From: Ignatzschineria sp. RMDPL8A
GTDB lineage: Bacteria; Pseudomonadota; Gammaproteobacteria; Cardiobacteriales; Wohlfahrtiimonadaceae
Reading direction: 5' to 3'
Assembly: GCF_029815055.1 (NCBI RefSeq)
Contig: NZ_JAPPWA010000002.1
Coordinates: forward strand, 1,116,001 to 1,180,000
Length of the DNA stretch: 64,000 bases
The notes under the pieces: model-generated
What the model was told of the DNA's origin: nothing
The model's database searches: none
What the model saw: the letters and a program-made list of their open reading frames with translations, nothing else
Program-made: the position numbers and the translations under genes
Shown: one piece after another, positions 8,272-15,378 of the stretch
Layout: every line of letters begins with the position of its first letter
How positions within the stretch are numbered: position 1 is the stretch's first letter

Positions 8272-8880
8272 ATGTTACTCTATTATGTAGACCTGTTTGG
8301 AACGGCGGTCTTTGCGCTTTCGGGCGTATTAGTGGCGGCGCGTAAGCAGATGGATTTTGTCGGCGTTGTAGTCTTAGCTGCGGCCGTTGCGATCGGTGGT
8401 GGAACGCTCCGCGATCTTATCTTAGGTGTCGATACGGTGTTTTGGGTGGCGGATAATCTCTATCTCTACGTCACCTTTTTTGCGGCGGTGATTGGCGTGA
8501 TTTTCCTGAAGATTTTTGATCATCTTGACCGCAGGCTCCTCCTTCCCGTCTGTGATGCGATTGGCGTTGCCGTCTTTTTAGGGATTGGGCTCACCAAATC
8601 GCTGGCCTACGGTACTTCCGATCTAGTGGCCATTATTTTAGGTACGGTAACCGCGGTGGGTGGCGGTATGCTGCGCGATCTTTTAGCTCGTGAAATCCCC
8701 TTTGTTCTTAAAAAAGAGATCTACGCCACCGCCTGTGTAATTGGTGGCGTGGTGATGGTTTCAGCCCTTCATTTAGGCCTTTCCGATACGCTTTCGCTGC
8801 TCCTTGGAATGGGGGTTACCTTGGCGATTCGCCTTATTTCTATTTTCTATTCATTACGATTACCGGAGTTTCGTCTATGA
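8272..8880 (+). CDS. TRIC-family (UPF0126, YicG-like) membrane protein
   Basis: A 202-aa inner-membrane protein with about seven hydrophobic segments and an internal duplication: GGGTLRDLILG in the first half and GGGMLRDLLAREIP in the second. This glycine-rich motif repeated twice marks the prokaryotic trimeric intracellular cation channel (TRIC) family, which includes E. coli YicG and YadS. Family members conduct monovalent cations in vitro; a physiological role is not established. The ATG is preceded by GGAGGGGG. Its stop overlaps the start of the next gene by 4 bp (ATGA), so the two are translationally coupled. Confidence 0.88.
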   Translation: MLLYYVDLFGTAVFALSGVLVAARKQMDFVGVVVLAAAVAIGGGTLRDLILGVDTVFWVADNLYLYVTFFAAVIGVIFLKIFDHLDRRLLLPVCDAIGVAVFLGIGLTKSLAYGTSDLVAIILGTVTAVGGGMLRDLLAREIPFVLKKEIYATACVIGGVVMVSALHLGLSDTLSLLLGMGVTLAIRLISIFYSLRLPEFRL

Positions 8881-9797
8881 CGCGTCTATTTACGTTATTT
8901 TTAACGTTTTCATTGGCTTTTTTCGGAATGTTTTCCGGGGCAAATGCCGCTTTAGTTGAGCCTCTTGATGGGCAAGATCAATCCTTTTTCTGGAAGATTG
9001 AGAAAGAGGGTACGGAGCCTTCCTATCTGCTTGGCTCAATGCATACGGGGTATAAAGATTCCGAGCTTCCGCTTGAGTATGTGGCGCACCTTGAAAAGAG
9101 TGATCGTTTAGTGCTTGAGATTTCGCCAGAAGATGAGGATCTGATGCCGTTTGTTTTTACTATGTACAATTTAGAGGGTACGACGCGAAAAGCACTCGGC
9201 GAAACGCGTTATCAAGCCCTTTTTAAAAAGTGGAGCGAGATCGGTCTTGAGCCACAATTGATCGAGAGTCTTAATCTTTGGGCGATTATGATGCTTTTTG
9301 AGATGGCGCTTCCTGAGCCATTATCTGCCGATTTTGGCGTGGATTTTCTACTAACGGAAAAGGCACGTGAACTTAATAAAGCAATGCATCCTCTTGAAGA
9401 TGTCAGTGTTTCAATTGAGAAATTTAGTTCAATTCCGACGGATCGATTACTTGAAGCGATCGATATTCGTATCGAACATTTTGATGCAATGCAGGCACAA
9501 ATCTCTGAACTCGCCCGCCGTTATTATGAAGGCGATACCGCAAGTGTTTTAGCCTATGCCAATGAAGATCAGCTCTCGGATTTTTATTCAGAAGAAGCGA
9601 AAGCTTATTGGGATGATTGGTTTGTTCGCCAAATTCTTACTGAGCGTAATCATCTCTGGATGCCCGAATTATTACCCCTTCTTGAGGCAGGCAATAGCTT
9701 TATTGCCGTCGGTGCACTCCATCTCTTTGGCGAAGAGGGGCTTCTTAATTTGTTAGAAAAAGAAGGCTATGAGCTCACGCCGATCATTTTAAAATAG
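8877..9797 (+). CDS. TraB/GumN-family protein, secreted
   Basis: A 306-aa protein with a signal peptide (cleavage near FSGANA|ALVE, residue 24) and the TraB/GumN fold. Family landmarks are the N-terminal YLLGSMHTGY, the middle DFGVDFLLTEKARE, and the C-terminal FIAVGALHLFGEEGLLNLL. The family is predicted to be related to metalloproteases because of conserved His/Glu residues, but enzymatic activity is poorly documented in bacteria. It overlaps the upstream TRIC gene by 4 bp and is followed by a terminator, so it closes a two-gene transcription unit. The periplasmic location is inferred from the signal peptide. Confidence 0.85.
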   Translation: MTRLFTLFLTFSLAFFGMFSGANAALVEPLDGQDQSFFWKIEKEGTEPSYLLGSMHTGYKDSELPLEYVAHLEKSDRLVLEISPEDEDLMPFVFTMYNLEGTTRKALGETRYQALFKKWSEIGLEPQLIESLNLWAIMMLFEMALPEPLSADFGVDFLLTEKARELNKAMHPLEDVSVSIEKFSSIPTDRLLEAIDIRIEHFDAMQAQISELARRYYEGDTASVLAYANEDQLSDFYSEEAKAYWDDWFVRQILTERNHLWMPELLPLLEAGNSFIAVGALHLFGEEGLLNLLEKEGYELTPIILK

Positions 9798-9842: not shown

Positions 9843-9855
9843 GCTTAAGATAAAG

Positions 9856-9880
9856 GCCCTCTAAACGAGGGCTTTTATTT
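9856..9880 (+). terminator. Rho-independent terminator
   Basis: GCCCTC-TAAAC-GAGGGC followed by TTTTATTT ends the TRIC/TraB unit. The opposite strand carries a weaker T-run, so it may also help end the oxoprolinase operon arriving from the right. Confidence 0.85.
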
Positions 9881-9910: not shown

Positions 9911-11104
9911 TTACCCAATAAAATATTTATATAGTGTTTGAATGCTTAATGCAGTCATAATGGCTACAACAATGGCGCCAAAAATGGTTTGCCACATGGG
10001 ATGTTTGTAGTCACCGACGACTTCTTTTTTATATGCGGCGATTAAGATTGGGCCTAATGTGAGAGGTAAAATCAGGCCATTGAGTGCACCGACTAAGATT
10101 AATATCTCGACAGGACGACCAACGCTCACAAAGACTACCGTTGAAATGAAGATAAATGCAATGATAAAACGATTTTGATGTTGTGCGACTTTGGGGCTAA
10201 AGATACGCAGGAACGTTACCGAGGTATACGCCGCGCCAATCACAGAGGTAACTGCAGCTGCCCACATGATCACCCCAAAAATCAGATGACCTGTTTTTCC
10301 GGCGGCATGCTCAAATACTGAAGCGACAGGATTTCCTGCGGCAAGTTTATAGCCTTGTGATATAACGCCAAGCACTGCAAGGAATAAAATGACACGCATA
10401 ATGGCCGTAACGCCAATTCCCATCAAAGAGCTTTTAGAGACATCTGAAAGAGCTTCTTTACCATGAACACCTGCATCAAGCAATCGGTGTGCACCAGCAA
10501 AGGTGATATAGCCACCGACTGTTCCACCCACTAACGTGACAATTGCAAGGATTGTGCCTGAGTCAAAGGATTCAGGGATAAAAGAGCGATACGCAGCTTC
10601 TCCAACGGGGGGAGAGGATTTAAACACAACGTATAGCGTTAAAAAAATCATTAAGATTCCGGCATATTGAACAAATTTATCCATAATGCGTCCGGCTTCC
10701 TTAAACATAAAGATTCCAATTGCAATAGCGGCGCTAATCATAGCGCCTACCTCAACGGATACACCGGTAAATACATTAATTCCAAGGCCTGCCCCGGCGA
10801 CGTTACCAATATTAAAGGCTAATCCGCCAATCACCACTAAAAATGAGACAAAATAGCCAAGGCCAGGTATGACTTTATTGGCAATATCTTGGCCTCGCAT
10901 ATTGGAGACGGTAATAATACGCCAAATATTGAGCTGTGCGCCTAAATCCAAAATAATCGAGATAAGAATCACAAATGCGAAACTTGAACCTAATTGATCG
11001 GTGAAAGTAGTCGTTTGAGTTAAAAATCCGGGACCAATAGCAGATAACCCCATGAGGAATACCGCACCAATAATAGCACTCCGTCTCTCTTTAATCGTAT
11101 TCAT
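9911..11104 (-). CDS. NRAMP-related transporter without the metal-binding motif
   Basis: A 397-aa membrane protein with about eleven hydrophobic segments, of the NRAMP-related YcsG type found beside 5-oxoprolinase genes (B. subtilis ycsG lies next to ycsF). The first helix reads SAIGPGFLTQTTTFTDQ (residues 21-37); where metal-transporting NRAMPs have DPGN a few residues after GPGFL, this protein has none. The sixth-helix MPHN-type motif is also absent (GGTVGGYITFAGAHRLLD, 193-210). It is the last gene of the pxpB-pxpC-pxpA run, 53 bp after pxpA, with a good AGGAG. Transport of 5-oxoproline or a related solute is an inference from context; automated naming as a manganese transporter would be doubtful. 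Confidence 0.8.
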   Translation of the reverse strand: MNTIKERRSAIIGAVFLMGLSAIGPGFLTQTTTFTDQLGSSFAFVILISIILDLGAQLNIWRIITVSNMRGQDIANKVIPGLGYFVSFLVVIGGLAFNIGNVAGAGLGINVFTGVSVEVGAMISAAIAIGIFMFKEAGRIMDKFVQYAGILMIFLTLYVVFKSSPPVGEAAYRSFIPESFDSGTILAIVTLVGGTVGGYITFAGAHRLLDAGVHGKEALSDVSKSSLMGIGVTAIMRVILFLAVLGVISQGYKLAAGNPVASVFEHAAGKTGHLIFGVIMWAAAVTSVIGAAYTSVTFLRIFSPKVAQHQNRFIIAFIFISTVVFVSVGRPVEILILVGALNGLILPLTLGPILIAAYKKEVVGDYKHPMWQTIFGAIVVAIMTALSIQTLYKYFIG

Positions 11105-11157: not shown

Positions 11158-11934
11158 TTAAATGGCAGATGTGATGGAAATATGGTGTGAATGAAGTGAT
11201 TTATGAATTGCTTTAGCAAACTCAAGAGCGGTTATGCCATCACCATGAATGCAAAGTGTATCGGCTTCTAGTGAAATGATTTCTCCACAGGTCGTTGTTA
11301 CACTTTTCTCTTGAATCATCTGTAAGACTTGTTTGAGCGCGATTTCAGGGTCAATAATCAATGCATTTGCTTCGCGTCTAGAGGTGAGATTACCATCTTT
11401 TTGATAGGTTCGATCCGCAAAGACCTCGCTTGCAACCGGAATATCTGCTTCACGGCCCGCCTCGATCATGCAACTTCCCGCTAAGCCGTAAAAAATAGCC
11501 TCTCCTTTTGAAATATCCGCAATAGCGTGTGCGATCGATAGGGCAAGCGTTTTATCGCGTGCCGCCATTTGATAGAGCGCACCATGAGGTTTAACATGAT
11601 GCAATTTTCCGCCGATTGCCTCTAAGAAACCTTTTAGCGCACCTACTTGGTAAATAATCAAGTCGTAAGCCTCCTCAGGGGTAATTGCAAGATTGCGACG
11701 TCCAAATCCTTGTAGATCAGGCAGAGAAGGGTGCGCGCCAATTGCCACATTATTTTCTAAAGCCAGTTTAACGGTTTGATGCATAATCGTCGGGTCACCA
11801 GCGTGAAAGCCACAGGCGATATTTGCAGAGCTGATCAGCGGTAAAATAGCTGCATCATTTCCCATCTTCCATGGGCCAAAGCTCTCTCCTAAATCGCAGT
11901 TTAAATCGATTTTAAGAGCGGATTGATTATTCAT
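11158..11934 (-). CDS. pxpA: 5-oxoprolinase subunit A (LamB/YcsF family)
   Basis: Part of the bacterial ATP-dependent 5-oxoprolinase PxpABC, which opens pyroglutamate to glutamate. The 258-aa protein shows the YcsF hallmarks IDLNCDLGESFGPWKMG, IACGFHAGDP, GAHPSLPDLQGFGRR and HVKPHGALYQM. I start it at the ATG at 11934: GGAGG lies 5 nt upstream and the protein then begins just before the conserved DLNCDLGE block. A start 34 codons further up would add non-homologous residues and overlap pxpC deeply. With this start the overlap with pxpC is 8 bp, consistent with coupled translation of a multi-subunit enzyme. Confidence 0.93.
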   Translation of the reverse strand: MNNQSALKIDLNCDLGESFGPWKMGNDAAILPLISSANIACGFHAGDPTIMHQTVKLALENNVAIGAHPSLPDLQGFGRRNLAITPEEAYDLIIYQVGALKGFLEAIGGKLHHVKPHGALYQMAARDKTLALSIAHAIADISKGEAIFYGLAGSCMIEAGREADIPVASEVFADRTYQKDGNLTSRREANALIIDPEIALKQVLQMIQEKSVTTTCGEIISLEADTLCIHGDGITALEFAKAIHKSLHSHHISITSAI

Positions 11935-12907
11935 AATATCCTCCAAAGGCTGTTTTTGAGAGTTGTAACATAGATTCAACAGTATTAAGGTATTGTTGTT
12001 GAACTTGCAAGCGACGATTTGCCTCAGCATCATCAATTAATTTAAAACGCACGCGTTGGCGCGTTGCAATGTAAGCGAGTTTCCAAAGTTCAGCTTGAGG
12101 GATGACAGCAATTCTAGGGTATCCACCGGTGCTTTGACACTCTGCAGCAAGAATGAGCGGTTGCCCATTTGGCGGAACTTGAATGACACCTTCAAAAACG
12201 CCTTGCGAGCGCATGTCAGTGGTGATATCTCGCGTAAGAATAGCGCCTTCTAATCGTGTCCCCATTCGATTGCTATTATTGCTAATACGCCATAGCTCTG
12301 CCCAAAATACTCGGCGAGAATCCTCTGAAAATTGATCATATTCAGGGCCTTTAAGTACTGAAATGGTTGTACTAATAAAGGTGCGATTAAATGCACGAAC
12401 CCCAATTGCGTGCGTAATAACGGGCTGCTCTTTTGCAATAGGAATCAAATCCCCATCACTTAATGTAGAACCATCTTTTTTGTGTCCGCCGAGGTGATTT
12501 TTAATATCGGTACTGTAAGAATCCATTATCCGTGGCGTATCAAATCCTCCAGAGACAGCGAGATAGCAATACATACCGGAATTATGCGTTGGTTTTAATT
12601 CAACGGTCTCTCCTTTTTTTATATGAATGCGCCATCCGTGCCACCCTTGTGCTCGATCATTGATATTAATGGCGCAGTTTGAGCCGGTTACGGCAATCCA
12701 GCAGTTGCGATGAAATCGAACCTTCACCGGCGTTAAAATAACCATTTCAAGGGCTGCAGTGTTTCCAGGGTTACCGACTAAACGATTGGCTAAATGCAGT
12801 GATACACCATCAATTGCGCCTGCTTTTCCAGCCCCTAGATGGGCGTGAGAAAAACGGCCATAATCTTGGATTGTGCTACTGAGTCCTGCTTTAATGACTT
12901 CCATCAT
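11927..12907 (-). CDS. pxpC: 5-oxoprolinase subunit C (KipA/biotin-dependent carboxyltransferase-like)
   Basis: The 326-aa PxpC/KipA-type subunit of 5-oxoprolinase, structurally related to one half of allophanate hydrolase. Family marks: IKAGLSSTIQDYGRFSHAHLGAGKAGAID at the N-terminus, LVGNPGNTAALEM, RMGTRLEGAIL, and ECQSTGGYPRIAVIPQAELWKLAY near the C-terminus. The start overlaps the pxpB stop by 4 bp (ATGA) and has AGGAG 8 nt upstream. With PxpA and PxpB it forms the pyroglutamate-hydrolysing complex. Confidence 0.92.
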   Translation of the reverse strand: MMEVIKAGLSSTIQDYGRFSHAHLGAGKAGAIDGVSLHLANRLVGNPGNTAALEMVILTPVKVRFHRNCWIAVTGSNCAININDRAQGWHGWRIHIKKGETVELKPTHNSGMYCYLAVSGGFDTPRIMDSYSTDIKNHLGGHKKDGSTLSDGDLIPIAKEQPVITHAIGVRAFNRTFISTTISVLKGPEYDQFSEDSRRVFWAELWRISNNSNRMGTRLEGAILTRDITTDMRSQGVFEGVIQVPPNGQPLILAAECQSTGGYPRIAVIPQAELWKLAYIATRQRVRFKLIDDAEANRRLQVQQQYLNTVESMLQLSKTAFGGYYE

Positions 12908-13575
12908 AAGAGAATCTCCTCGGCAATAAACTTCAGTTGATCGCCTGGTAAAAAGAGGGAAGGGTGTTCTCGTGTTGCATCAAAAAACGCAAGGCTTGTA
13001 TTTCCGATAATTTGCCACCCTCCTGGTGATTCAGCAGGGTAAACGCCGGTTTGCGCTCCACCAATGCCGACGCTTCCTGCTGGAATTTTGAGGCGTGGTT
13101 CTGCCCGGCGAGGGGTTTCTAACGAGCGATCTAGGCCACCTAAATAAACAAATCCTGGCATAAAGCCGATAAAATAAACGGTATAGAGTGGCGCTGTGTG
13201 GCGCTGAATAACCTCCATCGGGGTTAGGTTATGAATGGCCGCAACCTCTGATAGATCAGGGCCTTTTTCTCCACCATAAATCACAGGGACTTCAATGGTC
13301 TTTCCCTTGAAATGATTGCTTAAATCAATGGAGTTAGATTGATGCCACAATGACGTTAAACGAGTAATTAATGCTTGTTTATCACAATCTGCATAGGGAT
13401 TGAGTGTAAGCGTTAAACTATTCATCCCAGGAATAATATCAATAATTTGCCTATCTTCGGATGCAGTTAATTCTGTGCTAATCCACCAGATGCGTTGCTG
13501 AATGTCGAGCGTGACCGCTCCTTTTGTTGCAAGCGTAATTCCCCGATCGCCAACCGAATAAATTTCGATAGACAC
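12904..13575 (-). CDS. pxpB: 5-oxoprolinase subunit B (KipI/allophanate hydrolase subunit 1 family)
   Basis: The 223-aa PxpB/KipI-type subunit, with cyclophilin-like fold signatures IPVIYGGEKGPDLSEVAAI, YFIGFMPGFVYLGGLD, PRLKIPAGSVGIGGAQTGVYP and SPGGWQIIGNT. It is the first gene of the four-gene operon. The start is GTG at 13575 with AGGGG 6 nt upstream. In B. subtilis KipI was first described as an inhibitor of the sporulation kinase KinA, but in proteobacteria the oxoprolinase role is the established one. A promoter-like pair lies about 70 bp upstream. Confidence 0.92.
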   Translation of the reverse strand: MSIEIYSVGDRGITLATKGAVTLDIQQRIWWISTELTASEDRQIIDIIPGMNSLTLTLNPYADCDKQALITRLTSLWHQSNSIDLSNHFKGKTIEVPVIYGGEKGPDLSEVAAIHNLTPMEVIQRHTAPLYTVYFIGFMPGFVYLGGLDRSLETPRRAEPRLKIPAGSVGIGGAQTGVYPAESPGGWQIIGNTSLAFFDATREHPSLFLPGDQLKFIAEEILL

Positions 13576-13672: not shown

Positions 13673-13992
13673 AATTTTTTGAGTCGCTGTCAATATTCGA
13701 TTAGGAAAGTAGGGCTTTCGCCGCATTTTAGAGCTTATATTTTTATGAAGATAAATTTGAGTAAAAACCATAATAAAAATCCAAAGAAAACTGTAAAGAC
13801 CCTTTAGTTAACTCATTGAAATATTTTTCGAACAACCATTTTTCACAATTTATTTTGTAAAGATAAGTAAAATGAGGTTGTCGACATGGTTTGGTGGGTG
13901 CTATAAGTTTCTATCGACAAAAAACGATACAACATCGATTGAAACGGAGGCTCATGGAGGGTTTTGAGCGCTAGTCAAAAGGAGTGACTGCT
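13673..13992. other. Divergent intergenic region between pxpB and gltP
   Basis: About 320 bp of AT-rich DNA without a credible gene, between the pxp promoter candidate and the symporter. It must hold the symporter promoter, but I see no clear -35/-10 pair. The last 60 bp are purine-rich and end with GGAG 8 nt before the ATG at 13993. Confidence 0.5.
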
Positions 13993-15378
13993 ATGAAAGG
14001 ATTTAAATTAACGCTCGCGTGGCAAATTTTAATTGCCTTAATTTTAGGGATCGCCGTGGGGACGGTGCTTCATAATCAACCGGAGACGGCCACCTGGGTC
14101 GATGGGTTGATTCAAAATGGATTTAAACCAGCGGGTGAGATCTTTATTCGCTTGATTAAAATGATTGTGGTGCCGATTGTCTTTGCGACGATTGTGGTCG
14201 GCGTTGCAGGTATGGGGGATTCGAAAAAGCTCGGTCGGATCGGCTTTAAATCGATTCTCTACTTTGAGATTATTACCACCATTGCGATTGTGGTCGGGAT
14301 TACGGCGGCGAATCTCTTTCATCCGGGAACGGGGATTGATGTGTCGGCGTTAACGCAAAGTGATATCTCCCAGTACGCGCAAGGGGCGGTGTCGGTTCAG
14401 CATGATAATCACTTTGTGAAAACGCTGTTAGGCCTCATTCCAACCAATATTGTGGACTCGATGGCAAAAGGAGATATGCTTGCGATTATCTTCTTTGCGG
14501 TGATCTTTGGCGTCTCTCTAGCCGGTCTTTCGAGCGATAAACGCAATCCGTTAATTAATGTGTTAAATAGCGTTGCGGAGACGATGTTTCGGGTGACCAA
14601 TTTGATTATGCGTTACGCGCCGATTGGGGTGTTTGCTCTCATTGCTGTCACGGTGACGCAATTTGGATTTGAGTCGCTGATTCCGCTCTTAAAACTAGTG
14701 GTCCTTGTGTATGCGGCGATTATCTTCTTTGCGATTGTGGTCTTAGGGGGAGTGGCGAAACTCTTTGGGCTCAATATCTTTAAGTTGATGGCGATTTTAA
14801 AAGATGAATTGATTCTTGCTTATTCAACCTCAAGCTCTGAAAGTGTGCTTCCGCGCATTATGCAAAAGATGGAAGCCTATGGCGCACCGAAAGCGATTAC
14901 GGGGTTTGTGATTCCAACAGGATATTCCTTTAACCTCGATGGCTCGACGCTCTACCAGAGCATTGCGGCGATCTTCGTGGCGCAATTATTTGGCATTGAT
15001 CTCTCGATTTGGCAGGAGATTACTCTTGTTTTAACGCTGATGATTACCTCAAAAGGGATTGCGGGCGTTCCAGGCGTGTCGTTTGTGGTATTACTTGCAA
15101 CCTTAGGCAGCGTTATGCCGATGGAGCAAGCAACTTTAGGACTTGCCTTTATTGCCGGTGTCGACCGCATTATGGATATGGCGCGTACCGCGTTAAATGT
15201 GGTGGGGAACTCTCTTGCTGCACTTGTAATTGCGAAATGGGAAGGGCAGTTTGATGAGGATAAAGCTCGCCGTTATGAAGCTGAAATGTTAGGGATCGAG
15301 GAGGATCAAAACCGAGAGGTTTTGGACGATCAAGCGTTACAGGTGCCGCTCGTTTTATCAAAGGCAGAGCAGGATTAA
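13993..15378 (+). CDS. gltP: Glutamate/aspartate:cation symporter (DAACS family)
   Basis: A 461-aa inner-membrane symporter for acidic amino acids or C4-dicarboxylates. The diagnostic substrate-site motifs are present in order: serine-rich loop STSSSESVLPRIMQKME, the TM7 block GFVIPTGYSFNLDGSTLYQS, the re-entrant loop TSKGIAGVPGVSFVVL, and the TM8 block DRIMDMARTALNVVGN. These resemble GltP/GltT more than DctA. I start at the ATG at 13993, with GGAG 8 nt before it; a GTG three codons upstream overlaps that ribosome-binding site. It is divergent from the 5-oxoprolinase operon, whose product is glutamate. Confidence 0.88.
   Translation: MKGFKLTLAWQILIALILGIAVGTVLHNQPETATWVDGLIQNGFKPAGEIFIRLIKMIVVPIVFATIVVGVAGMGDSKKLGRIGFKSILYFEIITTIAIVVGITAANLFHPGTGIDVSALTQSDISQYAQGAVSVQHDNHFVKTLLGLIPTNIVDSMAKGDMLAIIFFAVIFGVSLAGLSSDKRNPLINVLNSVAETMFRVTNLIMRYAPIGVFALIAVTVTQFGFESLIPLLKLVVLVYAAIIFFAIVVLGGVAKLFGLNIFKLMAILKDELILAYSTSSSESVLPRIMQKMEAYGAPKAITGFVIPTGYSFNLDGSTLYQSIAAIFVAQLFGIDLSIWQEITLVLTLMITSKGIAGVPGVSFVVLLATLGSVMPMEQATLGLAFIAGVDRIMDMARTALNVVGNSLAALVIAKWEGQFDEDKARRYEAEMLGIEEDQNREVLDDQALQVPLVLSKAEQD

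Follow-up and report, generated by a model that had tools for sequence, protein, structure and literature searches.

The gene at positions 9911–11104 of the window (the whole 64,000-nucleotide stretch of Ignatzschineria sp. RMDPL8A that was analysed) very probably encodes a PxpT-type importer of 5-oxoproline (pyroglutamate), judging from its sequence, its gene context and the genetics of its orthologues. The idea of 5-oxoproline uptake is already in print for the orthologues of this protein (PMC13274462). What is added here, from sequence and gene context, is a corrected register for the metal-site motifs, the replacement of that site across the sampled clade, the placement of MumT of Acinetobacter baumannii and a candidate substrate for an orphan clade of the same Pfam family.

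The transporter gene, its operon and its family

The earlier note placed a gene at these positions without naming its strand, and the gene is real: the ORF listing shows a minus-strand ORF of 397 aa that is open across the interval, where plus-strand frame 1 is stop-rich. That the transporter closes a pxpB-pxpC-pxpA operon, as was also claimed, agrees with the identification of its neighbours by Pfam and NCBIfam, which makes it the last gene of the following set.

9911–11104, minus strand: pxpT/ycsG-type NRAMP-fold transporter, 397 aa, likely 5-oxoproline importer (PF01566, 77 bits; YcsG model 9a52_A, Z 50.6, 60% identity)
11158–11934, minus strand: pxpA, 5-oxoprolinase subunit A (LamB/YcsF family), 258 aa from ATG (Pfam LamB_YcsF, NCBIfam)
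11927–12907, minus strand: pxpC, 5-oxoprolinase subunit C, CT_A_B domain (Pfam, NCBIfam)
12904–13575, minus strand: pxpB, 5-oxoprolinase subunit B, CT_C_D domain (Pfam, NCBIfam)
9848–9880, no strand assigned: hairpin resembling a terminator, in the gap towards which the pxp operon and the gene at 8877–9797 converge (pattern match only)

The genes pxpB and pxpC overlap by 4 bp and a gap of 53 bp separates pxpA from the transporter gene; a TTG at 12036 is an alternative start for pxpA and gives a longer ORF. The NCBIfam 5-oxoprolinase-subunit models match the pxp neighbours in part over and in part under their cut-offs. Promoter-like sites showed no excess in a pattern count (8 found vs 10.4 expected by chance). 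Divergent from the operon lies a gene for a GltP-type glutamate/aspartate:proton symporter (13984–15378, plus strand), whose product scores 719 bits, over the NCBIfam cut-off; no GltP was found in the sequenced stretches around five Ignatzschineria loci (L003–L007).

The PF01566 match of the window protein lies well over the Pfam cut-off of 29.8 bits, whereas its score with the NCBIfam MntH model NF001923 is 40.3 bits, below the cut-off of 430. An AlphaFold2 model made from 37 sequences (mean pLDDT 80.1, pTM 0.81) has as its best structure match the YcsG chain 9a52_A, with an rmsd of 3.2 over 394 aligned residues; entry 9a52 is an integrative model and not a crystal structure, and Foldseek puts the identity to it at 62%. 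The remaining structure matches are headed by DraNramp and EleNRMT (Z 37–40; 40.3 for DraNramp 6d91), and the APC amino-acid carriers ApcT and AdiC match the model with Z near 31. The nearest named relatives of the transporter are Ignatzschineria records (83–85%); by group codes, the window's genome shares their family but falls in another genus. The two characterized orthologues, YcsG of Bacillus subtilis and PxpT of Corynebacterium glutamicum, are reported to share 50% identity with each other (PMC13274462). By sequence, the window protein adds a new member to the PxpT/YcsG family. A 70% identical transporter is encoded on a contig binned as Bacteroidetes (L008), which is possibly misbinned.

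Replacement of the metal-binding site

In DraNramp, Mn2+ is held by D56, N59 and M230 together with the carbonyls of A53 and A227, and the D56A variant moves neither Mn2+ nor Cd2+, yet binds Mn2+ in vitro (PMC10185341). We matched these ligands to the columns of our own alignments, a correspondence made in this analysis, and the segments of the window gene that bear on them are the following.

11024–11035, minus strand: codons G24-P25-G26-F27 at the helix-1 break, in place of canonical DPGN (alignments, AlphaFold2 model)
10802–10804, minus strand: codon N101 (helix 3), in the column where Asp-bearing NRAMPs have their acid; the alternative register has N98 in that column (alignments)
10508–10516, minus strand: codons G197-G198-Y199 at the helix-6 break, in place of canonical MPH (alignment, AlphaFold2 model)

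The earlier note recorded GPGFL as present and DPGN and MPH as absent, and this part holds; a reading of GPGFL as a surviving upstream NRAMP motif does not. The segment IGPGF falls gap-free on DPGN both in a MAFFT alignment of 161 PF01566-type ORFs and in a profile-profile alignment with 12 canonical sequences, the position of the upstream GPG reads G13-A-V in the window protein, and in the AlphaFold2 model helix 1 is interrupted at residues 22–24 and helix 6 at 196–198. On these grounds we reject the upstream-motif reading, although an HMMER alignment of profile A2 (described below) with EleNRMT takes that register, with a 7-residue gap, and model confidence is low at the helix-1 site (pLDDT 52–55 for residues 21–40). 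By the alignments and the predicted model, GPGFL occupies the place of DPGN, with G24 for D and F27 for N, and G197-G-Y199 that of MPH.

The tests for DPGN and MPH thus returned GPGF and GGY, and the NRMT-like signature, a helix-1 Asp of the DAGG type with APW or TPW in helix 6, is absent as well. The helix-3 acid, which is E or D in all 74 Asp-bearing rows, is Asn in the window protein in either register (N101 or N98). In substance, the statement of the earlier note on the missing metal motifs is right.

The same replacements run through a whole class of proteins. Matches to PF01566 were drawn from 150 random Pseudomonadota and 119 random Bacillota genomes, from 40 relatives, from a similarity search that used the window protein as query and from plasmids, and the alignment set comprised 161 ORFs of at least 330 residues. 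Seven antisense ORFs, four duplicates and eight short fragments (including the broken loci L156, L157 and L047) were dropped before counting, one over-cut-off fragment (G158:C16) was left out of the set, and L002 was set aside in the helix-3 residue table. The GPGF/GGY class has 58 full-length rows, plus two GGY rows that lack helix 1; 36 of the 58 came from the similarity search and seven from plasmid matches, and only the count of the 12 random-draw members is free of this selection, though some of these 12 are close relatives too. Since related sequences are not independent, we quote counts and no probabilities. The class was read from the sampled rows, and the sequences of YcsG and C. glutamicum PxpT lie outside the sample.

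Seven motif columns define the class, so that identity in them is by construction, and two independent checks were available. In a tree built without the motif columns (a quick tree with a midpoint root only and no bootstrap), the GPGF/GGY rows, 20 after thinning, make up one side of a branch with an SH-aLRT value of 100, and all rows on that side carry the motif. Residues G24, P25, G26, F27, G197, G198 and Y199 are, moreover, invariant in all 37 rows of A2, which joins the window protein to 36 of the 37 similarity-found loci (the N-terminally truncated L034 was left out). Beyond the class-defining columns, all 58 rows differ from metal NRAMPs at five more positions: S21 stands where these have G/A, G194 where they have A, N101 at the helix-3 Glu, G204 at the second helix-6 His and G339 at the helix-10 Gln; the column of the helix-3 Asp has N in 57 rows and S in one. 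Cellier uses a helix-3 register in which the outgroup keeps Glu (PMC9606685, PMC10606218), and the two registers disagree: opposite the Glu of metal NRAMPs, our alignments have N101, and Cellier's description has the outgroup Glu.

A search of 229 gammaproteobacterial genomes with profile A1 gave a match only in the window's own genome, yet the random draw of Pseudomonadota genomes contained three members of the same class (L098, L099 and L100), and the family thus appears patchy in Gammaproteobacteria. A far branch of PF01566 has GGSH or GVSH in helix 1 (L102, L103, L104, L162 and L163, with a tandem in L104).

The protein would work as a secondary transporter of PxpT type, with the APC/LeuT fold, and bring in 5-oxoproline, which PxpABC from the same operon would open to glutamate with ATP. 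In the proposed binding mode, the carboxylate of 5-oxoproline would contact main-chain amides left free by the break in helix 1 (I23-G24-P25-G26-F27), and Y199, N101 and N342 would surround the lactam, in the pocket that in metal NRAMPs binds Mn2+ through Asp, Asn and Met; with its acids gone, the site would be suited to an anion. The pocket assignment draws on a model whose pLDDT is low (52–55) at residues 21–40. We infer the substrate of the window copy and its binding mode; the gene, its operon, the predicted fold, the family and the clade-wide site replacement are matters of observation.

Gene neighbourhoods and the second Asp-less clade

A gene for PxpA lies within 6 kb of 57 of the 58 GPGF/GGY rows, and over the same distance PxpB is encoded near 55, PxpC near 53, a D-glutamate cyclase-like protein near 37 and a biotin carboxylase near 15. 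Both truncated GGY rows also have PxpA, PxpB and PxpC beside them. No PxpA was found within 6 kb of any of the 74 Asp-bearing NRAMP rows. In the random draws alone, pxpA is near 12 of 12 GPGF/GGY members vs 0 of 73 Asp-bearing NRAMPs, and among the remaining rows it is near six of the nine with GPGT or GTGT and near none of the 14 others. The lone miss in the class, L105, has no pxpA in its 5.8-kb flank, and on its other side the contig begins 277 bp away. Hydantoinase-like genes occur at a distance of some 3 kb from two rows, the PxpT-type L024 and the EVGS row L090, with none beside the Asp-bearing rows. Three points slightly temper our confidence in 5-oxoproline as the substrate and in the wider proposal made further below: the doubtful register of helix 3, the short flank of L105 and these hydantoinase-like genes outside the second clade.

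The frequency of the cyclase-like genes (37/58), together with three loci of a second clade that carry a putative hydantoinase/oxoprolinase, would suit the import of some other compound of this kind, be it a lactam, an amino acid or an amide (D-5-oxoproline, D-glutamate or a hydantoin, for example), in place of L-5-oxoproline. We consider this unlikely: the reported phenotypes of PxpT and, as cited there, of YcsG concern 5-oxoproline (PMC13274462), and the ORFs starting at 5–16 kb of the window, around the transporter gene, yielded no D-glutamate cyclase.

The second clade consists of the rows with GPGT in helix 1, which form a separate branch of the motif-free tree (10 rows, SH-aLRT 89). Its T, V and Y in helix 6 and its aromatic residue and Asn in helix 3 resemble the substitutions that Cellier named for an orphan outgroup of PF01566 (PMC10606218). 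The GPGT/VPY clade is equated here with that outgroup, a matching of sequences made in this analysis. An E stands three positions before N101 in six of the 10 rows, and in Cellier's register the orphan clade may keep the helix-3 acid. A single joint clade of both Asp-less groups was not rejected (AU p 0.306), for which reason we claim no two origins for them.

A search of 348 Bacillota and 349 Pseudomonadota genomes added 10 loci to eight GPGT/VPY rows, which makes 18. PxpABC is encoded beside 10 of these, a fused hydantoinase/oxoprolinase beside three and neither beside five. In Bacillota, PxpA, PxpB and PxpC were present in all nine fetched stretches; the nine loci from Pseudomonadota comprise one with PxpABC, three with the fused protein and five with neither. 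In L071, L169 and L170, the transporter gene overlaps by 4 bp the gene of a fused hydantoinase A/B protein of 1194–1216 residues, with which no NCBIfam model scores over its cut-off. The loci with neither gene (L078 and L171–L174) belong to one family code, and their neighbours were Pfam-scanned for L171 and L172 only. No oxoprolinase or hydantoinase genes were found near the variants L142 (GTGT) and L106 (GPGT with IGI) or the far row L089 (GPGS), all of them outside the 18. L106 (5911–7140) is a second Asp-less PF01566 protein in a genome of the window's family, encoded between genes for an amidohydrolase and a TonB-dependent receptor.

Cellier reports that the metal-site residues were fixed before the oldest MntH group (PMC9606685). 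A gain of the metal site fits this early fixation, and a midpoint root cannot separate loss from late gain.

Manganese, 5-oxoproline and known systems

Two lines of research, on YcsG and on MumT, describe a manganese importer, and two others describe a 5-oxoproline importer. In C. glutamicum, deletion of pxpT abolished growth on 5-oxoproline and complementation restored it (PMC13274462); PxpABC, too, is reported to be needed for such growth in the hosts of orthologues. The 2026 paper on PxpT cites a B. subtilis ycsG deletion that made 5-oxoproline unusable as a nitrogen source (Niehaus 2017), infers uptake from growth and leaves metal transport by PxpT possible. As reported in PMC10448178, by contrast, overexpression of YcsG raised cell manganese, a triple mutant of mntH, mntA and ycsG was unobtainable, MntR binds the promoter of the ycsG operon, and the nitrogen phenotype of ycsG is perhaps partly polar on pxpBC. 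In A. baumannii, MumT was published as a manganese importer in a urea operon: its deletion lowered cell manganese as measured by ICP-MS, with complementation, and changed calprotectin sensitivity and manganese tolerance (PMC5050338). That work was continued in PMC11796373. These manganese data speak against a pure 5-oxoproline role, and with YcsG and MumT both reported as manganese importers the objection of metal uptake stays in play for the relatives.

The window protein could accordingly be a manganese importer of the MntG/MumT type that shares a 5-oxoprolinase operon and perhaps supplies manganese to enzymes, as the altered cell manganese upon YcsG overexpression and MumT deletion and the presence of MntR on the B. 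subtilis promoter would have it (PMC10448178, PMC5050338). We regard this as very unlikely. The side-chain metal ligands and the charged or His residues examined in helices 1, 3 and 6 are replaced in all 58 rows, pxpA is near none of the 74 Asp-bearing NRAMPs, PxpT is reported to be required for growth on 5-oxoproline (PMC13274462), and the genome has a separate metal importer. This is an ABC system with a metal-binding protein, an ATPase and two permeases encoded in a row; the ATPase scores 394.6 with the NCBIfam model of the manganese/iron type, whose cut-off is 393, whereas the metal-binding protein is under every NCBIfam cut-off. With this putative Mn/Fe-type importer, the host need not, by gene content, depend on the window protein for manganese. 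In this genome, which is 99% complete, no protein other than the window protein exceeds the PF01566 cut-off. One further match was considered as a second NRAMP and rejected, as its 25.2 bits are below the cut-off and it reads by eye as an aromatic amino-acid permease.

Both literature claims would be right if 5-oxoproline were carried together with a divalent metal or complexed to it, which would reconcile the manganese and the 5-oxoproline phenotypes. Metal-citrate carriers offer a comparison for such metal-complexed transport, but 5-oxoproline is a weak metal ligand and the aligned metal-site columns are devoid of any acid; we hold this reading to be highly improbable. The earlier note's preference for pyroglutamate uptake over a metal role is supported by the operon, the lost ligands and the published genetics of PxpT (PMC13274462). 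Its expectation that databases would call such a protein a divalent-metal transporter was borne out by plasmid relatives labelled 'NRAMP family divalent metal transporter', and that label covers a clade with no surviving side-chain metal ligand.

By its sequence, MumT is a member of the GPGF/GGY class. We took locus L040 as the A. baumannii mum locus from its organism, gene order and protein families. The products of L040 are a transporter with the GPGF and GGY motifs, PxpA, a protein of the D-glutamate cyclase family, a CT_C_D-CT_A_B fusion and a biotin carboxylase that carries a biotin domain. A domain scan found no amidase domain in the L040 protein at the place of MumH. Urea carboxylase has the same set of domains as L040 (matches to TIGR02712 stayed under the cut-off), and by this shared set the locus may have a role in urea use. 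The stretch 6700–14160 of L040 holds a gene that reads by eye as a LysR-type regulator, along with 5-oxoprolinase-type genes, against the published urea reading. A search of the open-access literature (titles and the starts of abstracts) found no paper linking MumT or the orphan outgroup to 5-oxoprolinase; PMC13274462 and PMC10448178 concern PxpT and YcsG, and PMC4072509, PMC5809530 and PMC12393781 added nothing decisive.

Operons of the form pxpT-pxpA-cyclase-PxpBC-biotin carboxylase are plasmid-borne in L041, L045 and L046, and Klebsiella accounts for 93 of the 168 plasmid records with a transporter match. On a Pseudomonas aeruginosa plasmid (L047, 4114–6732), a pxpT-type gene is split in two with an IS5-like element between the parts.

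A wider proposal, which we put forward tentatively and at somewhat less than even odds, is that those branches of PF01566 which lack the Asp and go with oxoprolinase genes, namely PxpT/YcsG/MumT and the orphan outgroup with which NRAMP trees are rooted, may all be importers of lactam carboxylates, that the DPGN site may have been gained within older organic-acid carriers and not lost from these branches, and that MumT would be a 5-oxoproline importer whose manganese and urea phenotypes are indirect. If this is true, a published virulence-linked manganese uptake system calls for rereading. The residue table and the link of the second clade to two unrelated kinds of oxoprolinase-type genes turn the conflict in the literature into a clear prediction, the orphan NRAMP outgroup gains a candidate substrate, and the question is raised whether metal transport is a derived trait in PF01566.

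Among known systems, the Slc11/NRAMP metal transporters (DraNramp, MntH and DMT1) share PF01566 and the fold with the window protein (Z about 29–40), but are only 12–18% identical to it, and the window protein replaces their Asp, Asn, Met, both helix-6 His residues, the helix-3 acid and the helix-10 Gln. The orphan outgroup is like it in its Asp-less helix 1, in the shared N342, T29, G100 and N101 (by our alignment) and, as for the PxpT class, in its association with oxoprolinase genes; it differs in forming a branch apart and, in Cellier's register, in keeping the helix-3 Glu. MumT, as represented by L040, has the same GPGF and GGY motifs at 41.9% identity and, beside it, genes of the PxpA, PxpB-PxpC, D-glutamate cyclase and biotin carboxylase families; the fusion of PxpB with PxpC and the presence of the biotin carboxylase set its locus apart, as does its published role as a manganese importer in a urea operon. 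The operons of PxpT (C. glutamicum, cg1142) and YcsG (B. subtilis) differ from that of the window in gene order, which here is pxpB-pxpC-pxpA-pxpT, and the window also differs in its gammaproteobacterial host and in that no D-glutamate cyclase was found nearby; the window protein nevertheless belongs to the same family, has the same partners, PxpABC, and is 60–62% identical to YcsG.
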